This document shows, in pieces, positions 42,240 through 50,152 of a stretch of 50,152 bases of DNA. The position numbers and the translations under genes were made by a program. Each line of letters opens with the position of its first letter. The stretch's first letter is position 1. The notes under the pieces were generated by a model that was not told the origin of the DNA, searched no databases, and worked only from the letters and a program-made list of their open reading frames with translations. Where the stretch lies: positions 1 through 50,152 of the forward strand of contig JAJRVS010000195.1 in the NCBI GenBank assembly GCA_024277195.1, in the 5' to 3' direction. The stretch comes from Verrucomicrobiota bacterium. GTDB taxonomy: Bacteria > Verrucomicrobiota > Verrucomicrobiia > Verrucomicrobiales > DEV007.

Positions 42240-42833
42240 ATGAAAATTACTTCAGCTAGATTTGTCACCAGTGCCGTGGGCCTCGATGACTGCCCGCAAT
42301 CCGACTTGCCGGAATTTGCCTTCATCGGTCGGTCTAATGTGGGCAAATCGTCGCTTTTGAATCTGCTCTGCAATCAGAAGCTGTTGGCGAAGGTTTCCAG
42401 CAAACCGGGGCACACACGCTTGATCAATTTTTTTGTGGTTAACGAAAACCGGTGCTTTGTCGATCTGCCCGGATATGGCTACGCAAAAGCGGCCAAGTCT
42501 GAGCGCCAGCGTTTCAACGATTTTGTGGCGGATTACATTGAGTTCAGGGAGGGGCTCAAGCACGTGTTTGTATTGATTGATTCCCGTCATGAGCCGATGA
42601 CGATCGACGTTGATCATGTGACTTGGCTGGTTGAGCGCAAGGTTGCTTTTTCTCTCGTATTTACAAAATCGGACAAGGTGAAACCTGGTCGAATGAAAAC
42701 TAACCAGAAGCTGTTTCTCGAAGCGCTGAGTGAATACACTGACGGTGAACCACAGATTTTTACCACCTCTGCTAAATCCGAAGACGGACGTTTGGATTTG
42801 CTGCAGTTTATCGACGGGTTGGCGAGGAATTAA
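42240..42833 (+). CDS. engB: Ribosome biogenesis GTP-binding protein
   Basis: A 197-residue TRAFAC-class GTPase (YihA/YsxC). All G motifs are present: G1 GRSNVGKSSLLN (about 30-41), G2 Thr in KPGHTRLINFF, G3 VDLPGYGYAK (about 76-85), G4 FTKSDKVKPG (about 141-150) and G5 FTTSAKSEDG. EngB is essential in most bacteria for late assembly of the large ribosomal subunit. The length is normal. The start lies directly after the heptamer repeat and its GGAG. Confidence 0.97.
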   Translation: MKITSARFVTSAVGLDDCPQSDLPEFAFIGRSNVGKSSLLNLLCNQKLLAKVSSKPGHTRLINFFVVNENRCFVDLPGYGYAKAAKSERQRFNDFVADYIEFREGLKHVFVLIDSRHEPMTIDVDHVTWLVERKVAFSLVFTKSDKVKPGRMKTNQKLFLEALSEYTDGEPQIFTTSAKSEDGRLDLLQFIDGLARN

Positions 42834-42842
42834 GCAAGAGGA

Positions 42843-43109
42843 TCAACGTCGGCGATACACTTCATTCAGTTGCTGTGCTTGTTTTTTTTGATCAGGGGAG
42901 TCGTCGATGATAGCAGAGTGATATAAAGGGCTGTCTTCACTTAGCCGGATGGGGGGCTTGGTCAATCGAGGGCGTTTGATCGCGGGGGATAGGGCTAGTT
43001 CTTTTTCCAAGCCGCTTGCAATTAGTGCTTTGAGCGTGGTTTTACGCTCTAGTGCGGCAAGTTTAGCTTGCCTGAATAAGGCGTCTGGCAAATCTAAGGT
43101 TGTTCGCAT
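42843..43109 (-). CDS. Orphan ribbon-helix-helix (VapB-type) antitoxin
   Basis: An 88-residue protein; start at 43109 (MRTTLDLPDALFRQAK). The N-terminal 40 residues are a ribbon-helix-helix DNA-binding domain: TTLDLPDALFRQAKLAALE and TTLKALIASGLEKEL, as in VapB antitoxins. The C-terminal half (PRLTKPPIRLSEDSPLYHSA) is the type that binds a PIN toxin. No toxin gene follows; engB converges on its end 9 bases away. Its start codon lies within a perfect 26-bp dyad (43101-43126), the likely binding site for its own repression. It may be a relic of a toxin-antitoxin pair, or a free regulator. Confidence 0.8.
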   Translation of the reverse strand: MRTTLDLPDALFRQAKLAALERKTTLKALIASGLEKELALSPAIKRPRLTKPPIRLSEDSPLYHSAIIDDSPDQKKQAQQLNEVYRRR

Positions 43110-43126
43110 ATTGCAATATGCGAACA
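43101..43126. promoter_or_regulatory. Perfect 26-bp dyad over the start of the orphan antitoxin (candidate operator)
   Basis: The arm TGTTCGCATATTG (43101-43113) is followed directly by its exact reverse complement (43114-43126), a 26-bp perfect palindrome. The antitoxin start codon (43107-43109) lies in it. RHH proteins bind short inverted repeats, so this is a strong autoregulation candidate. Confidence 0.75.
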
Positions 43127-43154
43127 TTTCTAACTTTGTGCAAGAGGATTACAT

Positions 43155-43192
43155 TAGGTTTAACTTATTTTGATTTTGTTAAATCAAACCTA
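43155..43192. promoter_or_regulatory. Second inverted repeat upstream of the orphan antitoxin
   Basis: TAGGTTTAACTTA (43155-43167) and TTAAATCAAACCTA (43179-43192) are imperfect inverted repeats, with 7 perfect outer pairs. It lies 46 bases upstream of the antitoxin start, where its promoter would be. Confidence 0.35.
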
Positions 43193-43250
43193 TTATGCTA
43201 AATTTCCGTAGTTGCTGAGACGGATTTAAATGGTAATATTATCAGTTTGA

Positions 43251-43514
43251 TTGCTTGGCCTAATCTCTCTGGTTACAAGGAATACCTGGAAAATCGCTTT
43301 GATATCAGCCTTGTTTTGGTCAATGATGCACGCATTATTTATTCCTACCTGGGGAGTTGTGATTTTTTGGTCTTTTCTAGTTTTTTCTATTAGTTTTGTA
43401 GAATGGCAAAAATTTTCGAATAAAGAAGCCTTTTTTGTCACACTAACCATACACATGACGCAAAATTTAATTGGATATGGAATGTATTTGTTGACGGCCG
43501 AGCTTTCATTGTAA
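43251..43514 (+). pseudogene. Remnant of a CPBP (CAAX/ABI-type) intramembrane protease
   Basis: An open stretch of 87 codons with no good start (TTG at 43251, a stop TGA just before it). It codes for about three membrane helices and holds two of the three CPBP motifs: F-x-x-x-H in ALFWSMMHALF (motif 2) and H-x-x-x-N in LTIHMTQNLIG (motif 3). Motif 1 (EExxxR), with the catalytic Glu pair, and the N-terminal half are missing. It is thus most likely a truncated and dead gene. The region 43128-43588 holds no other gene. Relatives protect against self-made bacteriocins or process prenyl proteins. Confidence 0.55.
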
Positions 43515-43538
43515 TTGGTAAGCGTCACGCGCTGTTGC

Positions 43539-43582
43539 GAACCGAATTTCGGTTCTGGTTATCCCTCGGCATGCACACCGAG
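43539..43582. repeat. Two adjacent hairpins after the CPBP remnant
   Basis: GAACCGAA-T-TTCGGTTC (43539-43555) is a perfect 8-base inverted repeat; CTCGG (43565-43569) and CCGAG (43578-43582) form a second hairpin. Two hairpins in tandem recall a REP/BIME unit, and a RAYT gene exists at 24182. They could also act as a weak terminator. Confidence 0.35.
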
Positions 43583-43588
43583 CTACAC

Positions 43589-44794
43589 CTAACGCTCCTG
43601 CAGCATTTGAATCAGTAGGGTATGGCCCCAGTGGTTGGTGAGGGTGATCAGCAGGGCGGCGAGGATTAGGCTGGCGGCGGCGATCAGGAAAAGTTCGGCG
43701 ATGACAAAGCCGGCGGTGGTGAGGCGTCCGCAGCCGAGGCGGAAGATGGTGGTGAGTTCCCGTGCGCGCAGGCGCAGGCTGAGGATGAAAACTAACAGGA
43801 TGGTGAGGGCGGTGGAGATCGCGACGACAATAACGACGACGTCGAGCACGGTTTTGATGCGGAAGATGGCGTCGATCAGCTCCTGCATGATGAGAGGGGG
43901 GCGGATGAGTTGTCGTGTTTGACTCTGTGACGGGTTTTGATAGCGTCCGAGCAACAGGGCTTTGGATTTTTCATCCTTGGGAACGAGGATCGCCGAGCTG
44001 ATGGGGAATCCACTATCGTCACCATGAAAGTGGAAACTGGCTAGATTTTTGGCAGTGATTTCAATGTAGGTGATCAACTTGGCATTGGCGGTGACTGTGT
44101 TTTTATCATCGGATTTCAAAGTAATGCTGGGATCTTTGTTTTTGCTGAGATCCTGATGCCCGTGACCGAGTCCGGCGATGACCCAAGAGGTGCGCAGATC
44201 GACAAACACAGCTTCGTCGTCAGCGGTGCCGGTGGCAGCGAGCACGCCGGTGACTTTCATTTTCAGTGGGTACTGCCCGGCGATGTCGATGAAGTTCTCG
44301 GGGGTGGAGACCAGAGAATCTCCGGCGCTGCAGTTGAGTCTACGCGCGGCGCTTGCTCCGACGACGGCTTCGCCGAGCATCGCCATCAAGCGCCCGTCTT
44401 TGATGTTCAGCTGGCGGTGTTCGAAATAATCGAGAGTGGTTCCTACGATGCGGAAGTCGCCGACTCGAAAGCCGGTGTGCAAGGGGATGGCGGTGGCGAG
44501 GCCGCTTTGTTCGATGTCGATGGCGTCTTGATAGGTGATGGAGGCGGGTTGTTTGGCGACAAAGTAGAGGTTGCTCATTGCTAGGTCGAGCGAGCTGCCG
44601 GGTGCGCCGAGGATCAGCGGGGTGTCGTCGGCGCGTGAACTGAGTTGTTTACGGCTTTGGCTGACGATGATATTAAGAAATACCGGGACAAAGAGGATGA
44701 TGGCGAGAGCGATGATCAGGATCAGGCTGCGCCCTTTGTGATACAAAAGGTAGCGACCGGCGATGAAAAAGCTGTTACCGATGGCTTTGATCAT
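43589..44794 (-). CDS. FtsX/MacB-like ABC transporter permease of the metal-linked operon
   Basis: A 401-residue permease with one N-terminal helix (SLILIIALAIILFVPVFLN), a large periplasmic domain (about 40-305) and three C-terminal helices (about 315-395) with the FtsX-type segment RLRARELTTIFRLGCGRLTT. The periplasmic part has LGHGHQDL and ASFHFHGDDSGFP, histidine motifs I associate with the permease of the Zur-linked PA4063-PA4066-type operons of Pseudomonas. It works with the ATPase gene upstream (4-base overlap at 44791) and the metal-binding lipoprotein before that. Such permeases act as mechanical transducers or exporters, not as importers. Confidence 0.85.
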   Translation of the reverse strand: MIKAIGNSFFIAGRYLLYHKGRSLILIIALAIILFVPVFLNIIVSQSRKQLSSRADDTPLILGAPGSSLDLAMSNLYFVAKQPASITYQDAIDIEQSGLATAIPLHTGFRVGDFRIVGTTLDYFEHRQLNIKDGRLMAMLGEAVVGASAARRLNCSAGDSLVSTPENFIDIAGQYPLKMKVTGVLAATGTADDEAVFVDLRTSWVIAGLGHGHQDLSKNKDPSITLKSDDKNTVTANAKLITYIEITAKNLASFHFHGDDSGFPISSAILVPKDEKSKALLLGRYQNPSQSQTRQLIRPPLIMQELIDAIFRIKTVLDVVVIVVAISTALTILLVFILSLRLRARELTTIFRLGCGRLTTAGFVIAELFLIAAASLILAALLITLTNHWGHTLLIQMLQER

Positions 44795-45459
44795 GAGGTG
44801 ATGAGTTTAGGGAAATCGACGACTTGGTCGAATGAGGGCAACAGGTCGTGATCGTGGGTGGCAACGATGAGCGATGCTTGGTTTTGTTTGGCTTGGTCGA
44901 GCAGGATATCGAGGATGGCGGACTTGTTGGAGGGGTCGAGGTTGCCAGTGGGCTCGTCAGCAAGAATGATCGAAGGTTGGGTGATCAAAGCGCGGCAGAT
45001 AGCGGCGCGTTGTTGCTCGCCTTGTGAGGTTTGTGCGGGATGGCGGTAAAGTTTTTCGCCGATCCCCATTTGCTCTGCGAGGCTGCGCGCCCGGTCTTTC
45101 ACTTCGCGGGTGAGGCTGAGACTGGCGTTGATGCGGTAGGGGTGGAGGATGTTGTCGAAGAGGTTGAGGTAGTCGAGCAGGGCGAAGTCCTGGAAGACAA
45201 AGCCGATTTTACTGATGCGGAAGAGACGTCGTTGGCGGTCGTTGAGTTGGTCGATGCGGGTGTCGTCGATTAGGATCTGGCCATTCCGGGCGGGCAGGAT
45301 GCCGGCGATGAGGTGGAGCAGGGTGGTCTTGCCGCAGCCACTGGGGCCGATCAGTGCGGTGCTCTGTGTGGAGGGGATTTCGAGGTCTGCGGAAGCAATT
45401 TTAAAATCACCTGCGTGACCTTCTCCGTATTGAAATTCGACTGATGAGAGCTGGATCAC
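44791..45459 (-). CDS. ABC transporter ATP-binding protein (LolD/MacB type)
   Basis: A 222-residue ATPase. Walker A is IGPSGCGKTTLLH (about 34-46), the Q-loop is in FVFQDFALLDY, the signature region reads TSQGEQQRAAICRAL where LSGGQQQR is usual, and Walker B is IILADEPTGNLD (about 158-169); the switch His is in ATHDHD. The LolD/MacB/FtsE group is indicated by the close spacing and FQDFALLDYLNLFDN. The Thr-Ser-Gln-Gly in the signature is a notable change. It overlaps the permease gene by 4 bases at one end and the lipoprotein gene by 4 at the other. Confidence 0.93.
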   Translation of the reverse strand: MIQLSSVEFQYGEGHAGDFKIASADLEIPSTQSTALIGPSGCGKTTLLHLIAGILPARNGQILIDDTRIDQLNDRQRRLFRISKIGFVFQDFALLDYLNLFDNILHPYRINASLSLTREVKDRARSLAEQMGIGEKLYRHPAQTSQGEQQRAAICRALITQPSIILADEPTGNLDPSNKSAILDILLDQAKQNQASLIVATHDHDLLPSFDQVVDFPKLITS

Positions 45460-46373
45460 TGGGCAAATACAGGGCGCAGGTTTTTGATGTTCTGCTGCAT
45501 GATGCTGAGGAAATCACCTGAGTCAGGTTGATTGGCACAGGGATCGAAGACCACGCTGCCAAGGCCCATTTTTTTTAAACGCTGCACGCTTTTTTCCAGT
45601 GGAGGGCCTTCCCAGATCATCCATTGGGCGGGGTGGGTGGTGAGAATCTTTTCAAGCTCGGTCCATTGTTGCTCTTCTGGGTAAACATCGGGTTCCCATA
45701 ACACGGCTTGAATGTCGAGATTATAGGCGCGGGCAAAATATTGATAAACAGGGTGTGAAGCGACGAGTTGCAGTTGGGGTTTGTTATTGGTGAGTTTTTT
45801 GAGAGCTGCATTCAAGCCGTCTAGGTCGCTGATCAGGTTTTTGAGTTGATTGGGTAGATCCGAGTTGGTTAGCGGATTTTTTTCACCGAGGGCATCTGCT
45901 AATGATTGGGCTTGGCGGGCAGCTTGTGAAAGGTCGAGCCAGGTGGTGAAGACAATGCCGTTGTGGCTGTGCGGGCCTTTGGGGCCATGTTGGTGGGTGA
46001 CTTCATTTTCAATATTGATCCATTGATCCTGAAATGACGATGAGGTGTCTACGATGCGGCGGCGTGGCACGGTGACGGTATTGAGCCACTTCTCATAGGT
46101 TGCGCCGTTGAGGATCAGGGGATTGCATTGCTGGACGGTGGAGATGTCTTCAGCGGTCGGTTGCCAGAATGCGGGATCGCCGTTGATTTCCGGTAAGTAG
46201 ATTTGCCCGGGGTCGGCGCTGAGGCGGCGGGCGAAATAAGCGAGCGGGTAGTTGGAAACGAAGACTTTTGATTCGGCAGCAGGGGGGCTTGCCGGTTTTT
46301 CTGATTCCGAATCACAGGATATCAGTAGGCTGAGGGCGGCGATTGCCCAGCAGATGGAATGCAGTCGTTTCAT
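45456..46373 (-). CDS. Zinc/manganese-binding lipoprotein (ZnuA/TroA fold)
   Basis: A 305-residue cluster A-I solute-binding protein with a lipobox (AALSLLISC, Cys near 20). VFVSNYPLAYFARRL opens the TroA fold. In place of the NPHxxEPT loop it has NGDPAFWQPTAED, changing the first metal histidine to Phe. A histidine-rich loop follows, HQHGPKGPHSHNG (about 128-140), then ASHPVYQYFARAYNLD with the third His, and FDPCANQ at the end with the Asp. PAFWQP marks the subgroup seen beside MacB-like transporters. It probably traps zinc outside the inner membrane for the overlapping ABC genes. Confidence 0.88.
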   Translation of the reverse strand: MKRLHSICWAIAALSLLISCDSESEKPASPPAAESKVFVSNYPLAYFARRLSADPGQIYLPEINGDPAFWQPTAEDISTVQQCNPLILNGATYEKWLNTVTVPRRRIVDTSSSFQDQWINIENEVTHQHGPKGPHSHNGIVFTTWLDLSQAARQAQSLADALGEKNPLTNSDLPNQLKNLISDLDGLNAALKKLTNNKPQLQLVASHPVYQYFARAYNLDIQAVLWEPDVYPEEQQWTELEKILTTHPAQWMIWEGPPLEKSVQRLKKMGLGSVVFDPCANQPDSGDFLSIMQQNIKNLRPVFAQ

Positions 46374-46984
46374 TCTTCTATGTTTTCACTTTTGTCGGCC
46401 AGAGTAGAGATGGCACCACGAACAACAGTGCCGGTGAAGATCATCGCCCAGCCGTCGAAGATCAGGTTGATGCCGAACAGAACGCCGATTGCCCAGGCTC
46501 CGGAGAGTGGCCAGTCTCTCCATAACATCAGGCCGAGCAGCAGGGTGATGATACCGCTGAAAAGAACCCAGCCCCAGCCGGATTCGGGTTTGTGTTTAAA
46601 AGCATACATGATTTTAACCAGCCCGTCGGCGACGAAGTAGCCGATCAGGATGAGGGTGAGCAGGCTGAGACCAAGAAGGGGTTTGGCAAACATCAGGCCA
46701 CCGCAGATGATCGCCAGCAGGCCACTGAGGAAGGCAAAAACGGGTTTGTTCTGCCCGCTACCCTGAAAGGCGTGCAGGGTTTGGAAAATACCGCCGAATA
46801 AAATGGCTGCTCCGACAAAATATTGGATCGCCACTCCGGCGAAGAGGGGGGAGCTGATGGCAAACATGCCTAGCAGGATAGTGATGATGCCGAGAGCGAC
46901 GACCCAGCCAGCGCTTTTTTTAACAACTTTGGATAGCTCTTGCTCGGGATCACTCGGCGCTGATTCGGTCTGGATAGGATTCAT
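46370..46984 (-). CDS. HdeD family (DUF308) membrane protein
   Basis: A 204-residue membrane protein; start at 46984 (MNPIQTESAPSDPEQ). After a charged tail of about 24 residues come six hydrophobic helices, roughly at 27-45, 48-68, 80-100, 103-122, 135-150 and 158-180, with the HdeD repeat GIITILLGMFAI and GIITLLLGLML, the paired-loop pattern of the family. HdeD helps E. coli resist acid at high density; the mechanism is unknown. It is first in the operon and overlaps the metal-binding lipoprotein gene by 4 bases, so this family member may serve metal or envelope stress here. Confidence 0.88.
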   Translation of the reverse strand: MNPIQTESAPSDPEQELSKVVKKSAGWVVALGIITILLGMFAISSPLFAGVAIQYFVGAAILFGGIFQTLHAFQGSGQNKPVFAFLSGLLAIICGGLMFAKPLLGLSLLTLILIGYFVADGLVKIMYAFKHKPESGWGWVLFSGIITLLLGLMLWRDWPLSGAWAIGVLFGINLIFDGWAMIFTGTVVRGAISTLADKSENIEE

Positions 46985-47051
46985 GGAGACAGTGTCTTGG
47001 TTGGTGGTAAATTGTCCAGCAGTGTTTAATGAAAAAAATACGGACTGGTCG

Positions 47052-47065
47052 CATGAAATTTCATG
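47052..47065. promoter_or_regulatory. Perfect 14-bp palindrome in the hdeD / cyclase divergent promoter
   Basis: CATGAAATTTCATG is its own reverse complement. It lies 68 bases before the hdeD start and 15 bases before the cyclase start, directly followed by TATATATT, a possible -10 box for the cyclase gene. It is a likely binding site for a dimeric repressor; it does not match a Zur box that I know. Confidence 0.5.
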
Positions 47066-47080
47066 TATATATTCACAACG

Positions 47081-48163
47081 ATGGCAGATGATCACAGCGT
47101 GAATAAAGAGGGAGCGGGAGAAGCGGAGATGCTGAATCTGAACCGGGTGCTGTTGGTGGATGATAATCCGACCAACTTGCAGGTCTTGTATCAGGCGTTG
47201 GAGGAGCAGGGGTATGAATTGCTGATTGCGCAGAGTGGCGAGGAGGCTTTGGAGATTGCAGGCGCTGCGAAACCTGCACTCATTTTGCTCGATATCAATA
47301 TGCCGGGCATGGATGGTTTTGAAACTTGTGAGCGGCTGAAAGCTGATGAGGTGACAAAGGAAATTGCGATCATTTTTCTATCGGCAAGAGATCAGGTGCA
47401 GGATAAGGTGAAGGGGCTGCAACTGGGGGCGGTTGATTATGTCAGCAAGCCGTTTCAATTCGAAGAAGTGGTGGCGCGGGTGAATACCCAGCTTGAGCTG
47501 AGGCGGGCGAAGGAGGAGCTGCGCATGATGCATCAGCAAGCGGATTCGTTGTTGCTGAATATTTTGCCACGTTCGATTGCCGAGCGATTGAAAGAGAGTG
47601 AGCGTAACATTGTGGATAGTTTTCCCGAGGCGACTATTTTGTTTTGTGATCTGGTGGGATTCACGCCTATGGCTGCGCAGACTTCACCTGGGGAGTTGGT
47701 GAAGTTTTTAAACGGTATTTTTTCTGAAATGGATCAGCTGGCGGGCAAATACGGTTTGGAAAAAATCAAAACGATTGGTGATGCCTACATGGTGGCAGGC
47801 GGGGTGCCGGATCCCCGTGCGGATCATGCGGCGGCGGTGGCGGATTTTGCGCTGGAGTTGCTGCAGCGTTTGCCCTCTTTAGCTGAGCGAATGCAGCTGC
47901 CGGTAAAGTTGAGGATAGGCATTCACAGTGGGCCGGTGGTGGCCGGGGTGATCGGAGAGAAGAAGTTTGCGTATGATTTATGGGGCGACACGGTGAATAC
48001 GGCGAGCCGGATGGAATCGAGCGGTGGAGAGGATCGTATTCATATCAGCCAGGTGACCCACGATCTGTTGGCCGAGGGTTATGAATTTGAACAGCGCGGC
48101 AATATGATGATTAAAGGCAAGGGGGAAATGGAGACCTATTATTTGCTGAATAAAAAAGTGTGA
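47081..48163 (+). CDS. Response regulator with class III adenylate cyclase output domain
   Basis: A 360-residue protein; start at 47081 (MADDHSVNKEG). The receiver domain is at 20-140: VLLVDDNPTNLQ, phospho-acceptor Asp71 in LILLDINMPGMDGF, FLSARD and the Lys of DYVSKPFQ. A linker helix with LLLNILPRSIAERL (about 156-170), the usual cyclase-coupling helix, joins it to the catalytic domain (about 182-355). Metal-binding Asp190 (ILFCDLVGFT) and Asp234 (GDAYM) are present. Adenine-specific Lys230 (EKIKTIG) and the Asp of YDLWGD, and the transition-state Asn and Arg of DTVNTASRM, show adenylate and not guanylate cyclase. It makes cAMP when phosphorylated, probably by the kinase 16 bases downstream. 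Confidence 0.94.
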   Translation: MADDHSVNKEGAGEAEMLNLNRVLLVDDNPTNLQVLYQALEEQGYELLIAQSGEEALEIAGAAKPALILLDINMPGMDGFETCERLKADEVTKEIAIIFLSARDQVQDKVKGLQLGAVDYVSKPFQFEEVVARVNTQLELRRAKEELRMMHQQADSLLLNILPRSIAERLKESERNIVDSFPEATILFCDLVGFTPMAAQTSPGELVKFLNGIFSEMDQLAGKYGLEKIKTIGDAYMVAGGVPDPRADHAAAVADFALELLQRLPSLAERMQLPVKLRIGIHSGPVVAGVIGEKKFAYDLWGDTVNTASRMESSGGEDRIHISQVTHDLLAEGYEFEQRGNMMIKGKGEMETYYLLNKKV

Positions 48164-48179
48164 GCGACGGGATCTAAAA

Positions 48180-50152
48180 ATGATACAATCTATTCGTAAT
48201 AAAATGATGCTGTTCATCGCGGTCCCTACCGTCGCGATATATATTGGGGTGATGGTGTGGATCATGGTGTTTTCGAAAGGGCAGGCCCATCGTTTTCATC
48301 ATCAGGAAATGAAAGACCGGGCGGAAACGGCGGCATCGAGGTTTGATGATTATATCTCAAAAGTTGCGAGAGTGAGCGAAATCACCGCAGGTTTTGTCTC
48401 CCGAGTGCCGGATCTTTCAGATGAGCAGGTGTTTGGCATGGTCGAAGATCTGGTGTCGGAGAGTAGTCGGATTTACGGGTCAGGGCTGGCTTTTGAACCG
48501 GGGACTTTGAAGCCCGATGGTGTTTTGTTCAGCCCTTATGCTTACCGAGTGGACGGCAAGGTGGTGAGTAAGAACATCAGCAGGGAGGTGTATGACTGGT
48601 ACGGAGATGAAAAATGGCAGTGGTGGCATTTGCCCAAAAAGTTAGGCAAAGGGGTGTGGACCGAGCCTTATTTTGACAAGGGCGCAGGAGATGTGTTGAT
48701 GATAACTTATTCAACTCCTTTTTATAAGGGCGGTAAATTTTATGGAGTGGCCACAGCGGATATTGATTTGGAAACGCTGTATGAAAATGTAGGGCATGAA
48801 ATTGCCGGTAAGCGTACGTTTTACATATTATCCAAGGATGGGCGTTTTGTGTTTTCGCCGCATACAGAAGAGATCATGAGTAAGAGTGCGTTTGAAGTGC
48901 TGGAGAGTGAAGGTCATCCTGAGCTTGCTGACGAACTTCAGCAAATGCTGCTTGGGAAAAGTGGAGTGGTGACGGTGGGGGCTTTGTTTGAGCGTGAGCG
49001 CCACATGTATGCTTATGCCCCGATCCCTTCGACGGATTGGACCTTTGTTGCTTATATGCCCGAGTCCGAGGCTTTGGCGGGTTTTCGTCAGAATATGGTG
49101 TATGTGGTGAGTGCCTTTGTGGCCGCTTTGTTGTTGATTCTTACCACGATATGGATTGTTTCAAAACGCCTCACCCAGCCGATTGAAAAACTTCGAGATA
49201 CGGTGTTGCAGGTGGCGGACGGGGACTTGGATGCTCAAGTGGACGGTAATTTTGCCAATGATGAAATTGGTGATTTGGAGAAAAATTTCAATCGTATGAC
49301 TGCTGAGCTGAAGGGGCAGGTGTTGCGCCTCGCTCGTGAGGAAGCCGGGCGTGAGGAAGCCGAGGAGGAGAGTCGGGCTAATAGTGATTTTTTATCTCAC
49401 ATGAGCCACGAGTTGCGCACCCCGCTGAATGGGATACTTGGTTATGCGCAGATTTTGCAAAGGGATAAAGATCTGCCAAAGAGGCAACGTGGCAGTGTGG
49501 ATTCGATTATCAATTGTGGGGATCACTTGTTGTCTCTGATCAATGATGTTCTGGATTTATCAAAAAGCAAAGCGGGTCATCTTGAATTGGATTTGGCTCC
49601 CTGCGATTTAAAAAAGCTCACCACAGAGGTGGGCGATATTGTGGGGCAGCGAGCTCGCAGCAAGCGGGTAGAGTTCTCCGTGGAGCTTTCAGCAGAAGTT
49701 CCACGCACGATTATTTCTGATGCGGCCAAGATTCGCCAGATACTGGTGAATTTGTTGGGCAATGCAGTTAAGTTCACTGCAAGGGGTAGTGTGAAATTAC
49801 GTGTATTTAAGTCTGCGCAGGGTTTGCTGCAATTCGATGTTACGGATACTGGGGTGGGGATGAGCAAGCAGGAGATCGGACAGATCTTTGACCCTTTCAA
49901 ACAGGTGAAAGCGGGCAAGGCTGCCGGGGGCACAGGATTGGGCTTGGCAATCACTGAAAGATTGGTGACACTGTTGGGAGGAAAGGTCAGTGTGGTGAGC
50001 CAAGTAGGCGAGGGCAGCACCTTTAGTGTGGTGATCCCCTTGCAGCTTGCGCCCGAAGAAGAGTTGGCTCGACTAGAAGCGGAGAGTGACAGGAATCGCC
50101 AAGTGTCGAGATTGGCGCCGGGGCAAAAAGCGACTATTCTGGTCGCGGATGA
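48180..50152 (+). CDS. Hybrid sensor histidine kinase with periplasmic Cache domain (3 prime end cut)
   Basis: Open from the ATG at 48180 to the window end, 657 codons. Residues 10-33 form the first membrane helix; the periplasmic part (about 40-300) looks like a dCACHE sensor, with RFDDYISKVARVSEIT, FSPYAYRVDGK, MITYSTPFYKGGKFYGVATA and IPSTDWTFVAYMP. The second helix is at about 306-328, then HAMP (330-382, LTQPIEKLRDTVLQVADGDL). HisKA has the phospho-acceptor His410 in SHMSHELRTPLNG; the ATPase domain has NLLGNAVKFT, DTGVGMSKQE and GGTGLGLAI. The last residues, KATILVAD, look like the start of a receiver domain, hence hybrid. It probably controls the cyclase gene 16 bases upstream. Confidence 0.93.
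   Translation, partial: MIQSIRNKMMLFIAVPTVAIYIGVMVWIMVFSKGQAHRFHHQEMKDRAETAASRFDDYISKVARVSEITAGFVSRVPDLSDEQVFGMVEDLVSESSRIYGSGLAFEPGTLKPDGVLFSPYAYRVDGKVVSKNISREVYDWYGDEKWQWWHLPKKLGKGVWTEPYFDKGAGDVLMITYSTPFYKGGKFYGVATADIDLETLYENVGHEIAGKRTFYILSKDGRFVFSPHTEEIMSKSAFEVLESEGHPELADELQQMLLGKSGVVTVGALFERERHMYAYAPIPSTDWTFVAYMPESEALAGFRQNMVYVVSAFVAALLLILTTIWIVSKRLTQPIEKLRDTVLQVADGDLDAQVDGNFANDEIGDLEKNFNRMTAELKGQVLRLAREEAGREEAEEESRANSDFLSHMSHELRTPLNGILGYAQILQRDKDLPKRQRGSVDSIINCGDHLLSLINDVLDLSKSKAGHLELDLAPCDLKKLTTEVGDIVGQRARSKRVEFSVELSAEVPRTIISDAAKIRQILVNLLGNAVKFTARGSVKLRVFKSAQGLLQFDVTDTGVGMSKQEIGQIFDPFKQVKAGKAAGGTGLGLAITERLVTLLGGKVSVVSQVGEGSTFSVVIPLQLAPEEELARLEAESDRNRQVSRLAPGQKATILVAD

Follow-up and report, generated by a model that had tools for sequence, protein, structure and literature searches.

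What does a lipoprotein of the ZnuA fold do when the ATPase and permease encoded with it are not ZnuBC but relatives of MacB and LolD, and does the HdeD-family gene in front of them take part? The question is raised by an operon at 43589-46984 of a 50,152-nucleotide stretch of verrucomicrobial DNA (the window), which is contig C126 of its own 5.49-Mb draft genome, G000. A preliminary description of the DNA had reported a run of four genes there, and four minus-strand open reading frames (ORFs) were confirmed within these coordinates:

43589..44794, minus strand: MacB-fold permease, 401 amino acids (aa), with three predicted transmembrane helices and the motifs HGH (H211, H213) and FHFHG (H255, H257)
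44791..45459, minus strand: ATP-binding cassette (ABC) ATPase of the FtsE/LolD/YbbA type, 222 aa, with a GTG start over the stop of the ZnuA-like gene
45456..46373, minus strand: ZnuA-fold lipoprotein, 305 aa, with DPAFWQP, TTW and the loop HQHG....HSH
46370..46984, minus strand: HdeD-family (DUF308) membrane protein, 204 aa, with six predicted helices and an ATG start

Pfam matches were found for all four products (DUF308 2.7e-21, ZnuA 1.7e-32, ABC_tran 1.7e-30 and MacB_PCD 2.1e-10), and the 4-bp stop/start overlaps reported earlier are present as ATGA at 46370-46373, GTGA at 45456-45459 and ATGA at 44791-44794. The HdeD reading frame is open further, to a GTG at 47095, and the GC content of the operon is 54.9%, against 50.2% in the remaining window. 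In the sister genome G001, where the lipoprotein, ATPase and permease genes (the trio) lie at L032/L073, the GTGA and ATGA overlaps of the trio are retained (L032) but the HdeD gene is separated from the ZnuA-like gene by 69 bp, measured to the called start. Translational coupling had been proposed for every junction; coupling to HdeD is thus not conserved. We conclude that the three genes other than hdeD belong to what is, judged from sequence, a widespread and so far unnamed system.

The lipoprotein has the solute-binding fold of cluster A-I, as indicated by its Pfam match and by PDB sequence matches that include AdcA, YcdH and PsaA, and in this it resembles the binding proteins of ZnuABC and other cluster A-I importers. 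Unlike in ZnuABC, two of the four classical ligands are replaced, and the ATPase and permease encoded alongside belong to a different class. Positions were assigned by alignment with L064, the genome's other ZnuA homologue, and the changed metal loop described earlier proved real: DPAFWQP and TTW stand where L064 has DPHHWMP and HTW. Of the classical site of three His plus Asp/Glu, two His are replaced by A68 and T143, and H207 and D277 are kept; the protein also has C279 and an H-x-H...H-x-H loop formed by His 127, 129, 135 and 137. A lipobox-like LISC, read by eye, ends at Cys20, and the next residue is Asp. In E. coli, an Asp next to the lipidated Cys serves to retain lipoproteins in the inner membrane.

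The altered site is a property of the family. An alignment of 106 lipoproteins comprised L064, with classical ligands, and 105 non-canonical members, all of which have the four loop His and lack the first classical His (Ala in 89, Ile in 13, Val in 3). At the second position 85 of the 105 have Thr and 15 have His, the third His is retained in 101, the fourth ligand place is Asp in 48, and a Cys lies two places further in 70.

The permease is not of the ZnuB (ABC-3) type, as MacB_PCD was its sole Pfam match and its predicted structure (predicted local distance difference test [pLDDT] 85) is MacB/LolE-like. A PDB sequence search gave no match up to E 1, and the model matched 5xu1 (Z 17.9), LolE (16.1), HrtB (15.0) and MacB (12.5), with Foldseek matches starting at 5.7e-10. 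Like MacB, LolCDE and HrtBA, the window permease has the permease fold in which helices 1 and 2 are separated by a large periplasmic domain, but it differs from them in lacking a fourth helix and in having a His-bearing stretch and a ZnuA-like partner. Four transmembrane helices are the norm for MacB/LolCDE mechanotransmission permeases. The model of the window permease has three long helices, at 20-57, 299-342 and 357-399, and no hydrophobic segment was found beyond the third helix in 117 full-length relatives, whose longest tail is 28 residues. The model alignments stop short of the ends of their targets, as would be expected if the last helix is missing, and two DUF2796-type permeases show four hydrophobic segments (for one, L068, the DUF2796 neighbor was read by eye). 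Both histidine motifs attributed earlier to the permease, HGH and HFHGD, are present; HGH occurs in 120 of 121 permeases and FHxH in all 121, and neither is found in three more distant permeases (L068, L069 and L070). One of the two peptide patterns used for retrieval overlaps HGH, and thus HGH conservation among the 80 loci considered next was partly selected. Among 39 permeases found by profile and not by the HG-holding pattern, HGH is present in 38, the exception being the long-branched L203, and FHxH in 39. The ATPase scores highest with the FtsE and LolD models, under their cut-offs.

To survey the system, the permease alignment was searched against 84,980 species genomes, yielding 537 pattern matches, 497 of them confirmed (tblastn, E<=1e-3), and the best 80 loci were kept. 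Counted on the same strand and within 4.5 kb of the permease gene, on contigs that are often cut, an ATPase gene is present in 76 of the 80 loci, a ZnuA-like lipoprotein gene in 66 and a fourth component, here called c4, in 47, fragments included. The association of a ZnuA-fold lipoprotein with a MacB/LolD-type ATPase and permease is thus supported by Pfam, by the model and by gene neighborhoods. By record title, the permease relatives span more than 10 phyla, nearly all as metagenome-assembled genomes (MAGs): Gammaproteobacteria, several deltaproteobacterial groups, Planctomycetota, Gemmatimonadota (11 of 346 sampled genomes), Acidobacteriota, Cyanobacteria, Trueperaceae (Deinococcota), Rokubacteria (a phylum with two genomes available for comparison), Nitrospinota, Entotheonella, Methylomirabilis, Bacteroidota and others. 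The system also occurs on Methylomagnum and Paracoccus plasmids, and it explains why, in these two records, a MacB-fold permease has beside it a protein that the annotation calls "zinc ABC transporter substrate-binding protein". Three near-identical planctomycetal loci (L101, L113 and L119) have no ATPase, lipoprotein, c4 or HdeD gene nearby; their permeases, near-identical in the tree, carry three different planctomycetal names, perhaps through contamination between MAGs.

Lipoprotein and permease co-occur even where their genes are unlinked. Among 57 related genomes, the lipoprotein was found in 31 and the permease in 33 (each at E<1e-40), with both in 30, the lipoprotein alone in G030, the permease alone in G027, G033 and G039, and neither in 23 (Fisher p 1e-11, kinship ignored). 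A permease match lay beside the lipoprotein gene in 10 of 33 stretches, one being a 30-bit edge fragment, and 20 stretches around the permease gene held the ATPase in 20, c4 in 11 and the lipoprotein in 2. Moreover, when 11 permease genomes (10 without a lipoprotein gene nearby, plus L120) were searched for a lipoprotein in trans, matches of 1e-50 or better appeared in 6.

The commonest gene order is c4-ATPase-permease-lipoprotein. The window has the order lipoprotein-ATPase-permease, which matches that of L076, from Trueperaceae, behind its c4. In a quick tree of 78 of the 119 available permease rows, with support from the Shimodaira-Hasegawa-like approximate likelihood ratio test (SH-aLRT) only and 25 of 75 inner branches open, the window permease paired with L076 (SH-aLRT 91), outside both clades of its own family. 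With moderate confidence, the simplest reading is that the window genus acquired the trio horizontally.

Most c4 members tried have no Pfam family above cut-off, although that of L139 reaches HupE_UreJ_2 at 9.8e-6, and the C-terminal domain has an invariant H-x-G-H-x-H-x-R-x-N. A model of the L083 member (pLDDT 88) gave Foldseek matches to a copper-binding HupE/UreJ-2 domain (7.7e-6), ZrgA (6.6e-5) and PA4063 (9e-4). Its residues 223-376 align with ZrgA (Z 9.9, 123 residues, root mean square deviation 4.1), and residues 462-603 match VirB8/NTF2-like folds, with Z up to 12.6; the H-x-G-H-x-H lies in this second domain. At this level, matches between predicted folds indicate resemblance rather than function. 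In the window genome c4 is found at G000:C225:2598-3833, flanked by other genes on either side; the G001 copy is 72% identical to it, and in G002 a contig ends with part of the gene. In the window genus the trio and c4 are thus apart, and elsewhere it is usually the lipoprotein gene that moves. The c4 match on the Paracoccus plasmid is a short protein.

One system to which the operon had been likened is PA4063-PA4066 of Pseudomonas aeruginosa, which together with ZrgABCDE of Vibrio has a separate LolD/MacB-type ATPase and an FtsX/MacB-fold permease, as does the window. The lead is borne out by distant permease homology and by the ZrgA/PA4063-like domain of c4 in the wider family, and a metal context is common to both; the further claim of similar content is not. 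By tblastn the window permease matched (4e-8, 26% identity over half of the query) its counterpart in an operon of the order DUF2796-ABC-permease-DUF3299, and identity to two Zrg-type permeases on plasmid records, the Pseudooceanicola and Aeromonas copies rather than PA4065 itself, was 26-29%. Unlike the Zrg-type operons, that of the window has a ZnuA-derived lipoprotein instead of DUF2796/DUF3299 proteins, its branch of permeases has three helices with HGH and FHxH, and c4 carries the additional VirB8/NTF2-like domain. No Zur site was found at the locus, where a single palindrome was examined (below). Neither DUF2796 nor DUF3299 gave a Pfam match in the four window genes, the only ones searched for DUF3299. 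In the available parts of PMC8561739 and PMC11481552, PA4063 has a ferredoxin-like fold and PA4066 an OB-like fold, neither of them that of ZnuA, and the former source reports that PA4063 binds zinc with micromolar affinity; ZnuA is not named in the available part of PMC11247825. Relationships in sequence and predicted structure are best explained if the products of the trio work as a single ABC machine within the MacB/LolCDE/FtsX fold class, on a branch that is sister to the Zrg/PA4064-PA4065 transporters and has diverged from them. The related systems were already known, and what appears new here, from sequence comparison, is the branch that pairs a ZnuA-derived lipoprotein with a MacB-fold motor, a pairing described in none of the open-access papers listed, as far as titles and abstract openings go.

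What might such a machine do? In MacB-class machines, ATP hydrolysis moves the periplasmic domain. Since the lipoprotein is of a metal type, three partners have conserved His and c4 offers a ZrgA-like acceptor, periplasmic metal transfer is the best inference, and we put at about even the chance that lipoprotein, ATPase and permease form an ABC machine for ATP-driven handling of periplasmic metal, probably zinc, by mechanotransmission. The lipoprotein would hold the metal through its His loop and the remnant of the old site, ATP hydrolysis would drive the periplasmic domain of the permease, and the resulting movement would strip or transfer metal among the lipoprotein, the permease His pairs and c4, with no ion passing through a ZnuB-type channel. 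Several points weigh against this interpretation. Neither the fourth ZnuA ligand nor the added Cys is present throughout the alignment (Asp in 49 and Cys in 70 of all 106 rows). The permease model is least confident within its inner part at about 211-240, adjoining HGH (block means 58-71), and a joint metal site of the His pairs is therefore unproven. Among the 11 permease genomes searched in trans, lipoprotein matches were weak (1e-28 to 1e-30) in L101, L113 and L119, and L105 and L148 had none at 1e-10. The system is also dispensable, the permease being present in 33 of the 57 relatives and in 7 of 288 genomes of a phylum sample. Moreover, the metal could be nickel or cobalt, to judge from certain neighboring genes: behind the four-gene system of the Methylomagnum plasmid (L066:8843-11535) lie a TonB-dependent receptor and NikR on the opposite strand, which point to nickel in that host, and a DUF4198 gene adjoins the system in L089 and L067. 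Finally, the available part of PMC11481552 proposes that PA4063-PA4066 exports a pyochelin-cobalt complex.

That proposal leads to a first alternative, in which the permease drives a metal chelate, either a metallophore or a metal complex, outwards, with the lipoprotein either capturing the metal or presenting the complex. The window permease is a MacB-fold, distant relative of the Zrg type, and the same source reports that loss of PA4065 raised the cobalt content of the cells and that it lowered growth under zinc limitation in a znuA zrmB background. The permease lacks the fourth helix, however. Neighboring genes were tallied for 128 products (67 and 61, two from the L066 annotation) of 100-899 aa among 236, and in neither set did the 25 commonest Pfam families include a MacA/HlyD-type adaptor; an outer-membrane efflux protein occurred once among the 61 and an AcrB-type pump once among the 67. 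We consider export unlikely, if deserving of serious weight.

A more specific form of periplasmic handling is a widespread ATP-driven relay, in which the three-helix permease would take metal off the ZnuA-derived lipoprotein and pass it to c4 for loading into exported metalloenzymes. The lipoprotein would have exchanged its buried site for an exposed His loop, the ZrgA-like c4 would be the acceptor, and metal would not be imported. Example clients would be neighboring proteins of the metallo-beta-lactamase fold, the most frequent extra neighbor family, whose 18 genes are spread over 14 of the 89 loci (L077, L080, L082, L084, L087, L091, L095, L099, L100, L107, L124, L142, L148 and L150). The name comes from the Pfam tallies, in which all members included (5 of the 67 and 2 of the 61 neighbors) were of this fold. 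The genes lie upstream on the same strand in 10 of the 14 loci and adjoin c4 in L077, L087 and L100, and their products, read by eye, are apparently exported. As possible metal clients they speak for periplasmic metal handling in general; the relay as a whole we hold to be speculative and unlikely.

Alternatively, the lipoprotein could feed zinc, or nickel or cobalt, to the permease for passage into the cytoplasm. Import has been argued for Vibrio ZrgABC, and ZrgA supports growth under zinc limitation, according to the available parts of PMC9820375 and PMC9817125. A solute-binding partner fits this reading, as do L036-L038, in which a gene of the TonB-receptor family runs into an unlinked ZnuA-like lipoprotein gene, with an overlap of a few bases by called starts (L036:3505-6407 and L038:3575-6546; Pfam was checked on the L036 gene only). 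We know of no ion path through MacB-fold permeases, however, and that of the window has three helices only. Moreover, the classical ligands of the lipoprotein are eroded, and the same genome has a classical-ligand ZnuA homologue beside an ATPase at G000:C32. True import therefore seems distinctly unlikely. Available parts of the published work answer the question of import or export differently for the Zrg/PA4063-PA4066 type, and a ZnuA-derived protein on the same class of motor, with no fourth helix and with His on three partners, makes that question testable by point mutations.

HdeD could also be a functional subunit, a membrane partner that replaces c4 in the window lineage and links acid and metal stress. 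The window protein resembles the HdeD acid-resistance family in its DUF308 repeats and six predicted helices but scores 63.6 bits against a cut-off of 189 for the NCBIfam HdeD equivalog, and HdeD adjoins such an operon in few genomes. In favor of a subunit, HdeD occupies the place that c4 has in L076, with whose permease that of the window groups, and c4 is absent nearby in all three of the 80 loci with HdeD upstream, which is suggestive from few cases. These are G001, Rokubacteria L086 and Gemmatimonadota L120, and in the latter two HdeD is 40% and 26-28% identical, respectively, to that of the window. In L086, HdeD is followed by a 251-aa protein that matched no Pfam family, a gene that by eye looks nucleotidyltransferase-like, the ATPase and the permease; in L120, it is followed by a His-rich protein that weakly matches a barrel and then by ATPase, permease and lipoprotein. 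One of the three is, however, the sister genome, a single HdeD match of 25 bits came from another ten loci of Gemmatimonadota, some of them truncated, c4 persists in the genus, and the overlap is not conserved. Weak 25-bit matches in L135 and L236 were dropped. Contrary to the preliminary description, hdeD is largely unlinked from the machinery in relatives, and on locus counts it was rejected as a conserved operon member; nor was an hdeD-led operon of this kind found in the titles and abstract openings of the open-access papers listed. We infer that HdeD is a lineage-specific local neighbor outside the core machine and not needed for its activity, and a role as subunit is very doubtful. Least probable is a LolCDE-type lipoprotein-sorting or envelope-stress device with the ZnuA fold as client rather than metal handler, which the LolE fold match (Z 16.1) and the LolD/FtsE-like ATPase would suit but the conserved His pairs or loops of permease, c4 and lipoprotein would not.

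Regulation of the operon was sought upstream of hdeD:

46985..47062, no strand assigned: short divergent stretch between the HdeD gene and a cyclase gene, with the palindrome CATGAAATTTCATG at 47052-47065

No Zur-type operator was found, this palindrome being the only candidate examined and no Zur-box model having been run. The palindrome has a single occurrence in the genome and is not conserved in G001, and it therefore gives no evidence of a regulon. Nor was any regulator dominant in the 25 most frequent Pfam families of either set of the 128 neighbors, NikR occurring once. A scan of 42500-48500 returned 8 promoter-like sites against 5.1 (standard deviation [sd] 1.9) in shuffled sequence and 1 terminator-like site against 6.2 (sd 2.3), and neither result was used.

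Other genes accompany the operon. Proteins of one family, about 250 aa long and with no Pfam match, recur near it in L086 (728-1483), L074, L099, L123 and L239. Downstream in the window, on the minus strand at 42843-43127, lies a small ORF of 94 aa without a Pfam match, which we take to resemble a ribbon-helix-helix antitoxin. On the other side, 47063-50150 holds a divergent response-regulator/adenylate-guanylate cyclase gene and then a long ORF, and related genes stand at the equivalent place in G001 (L032).

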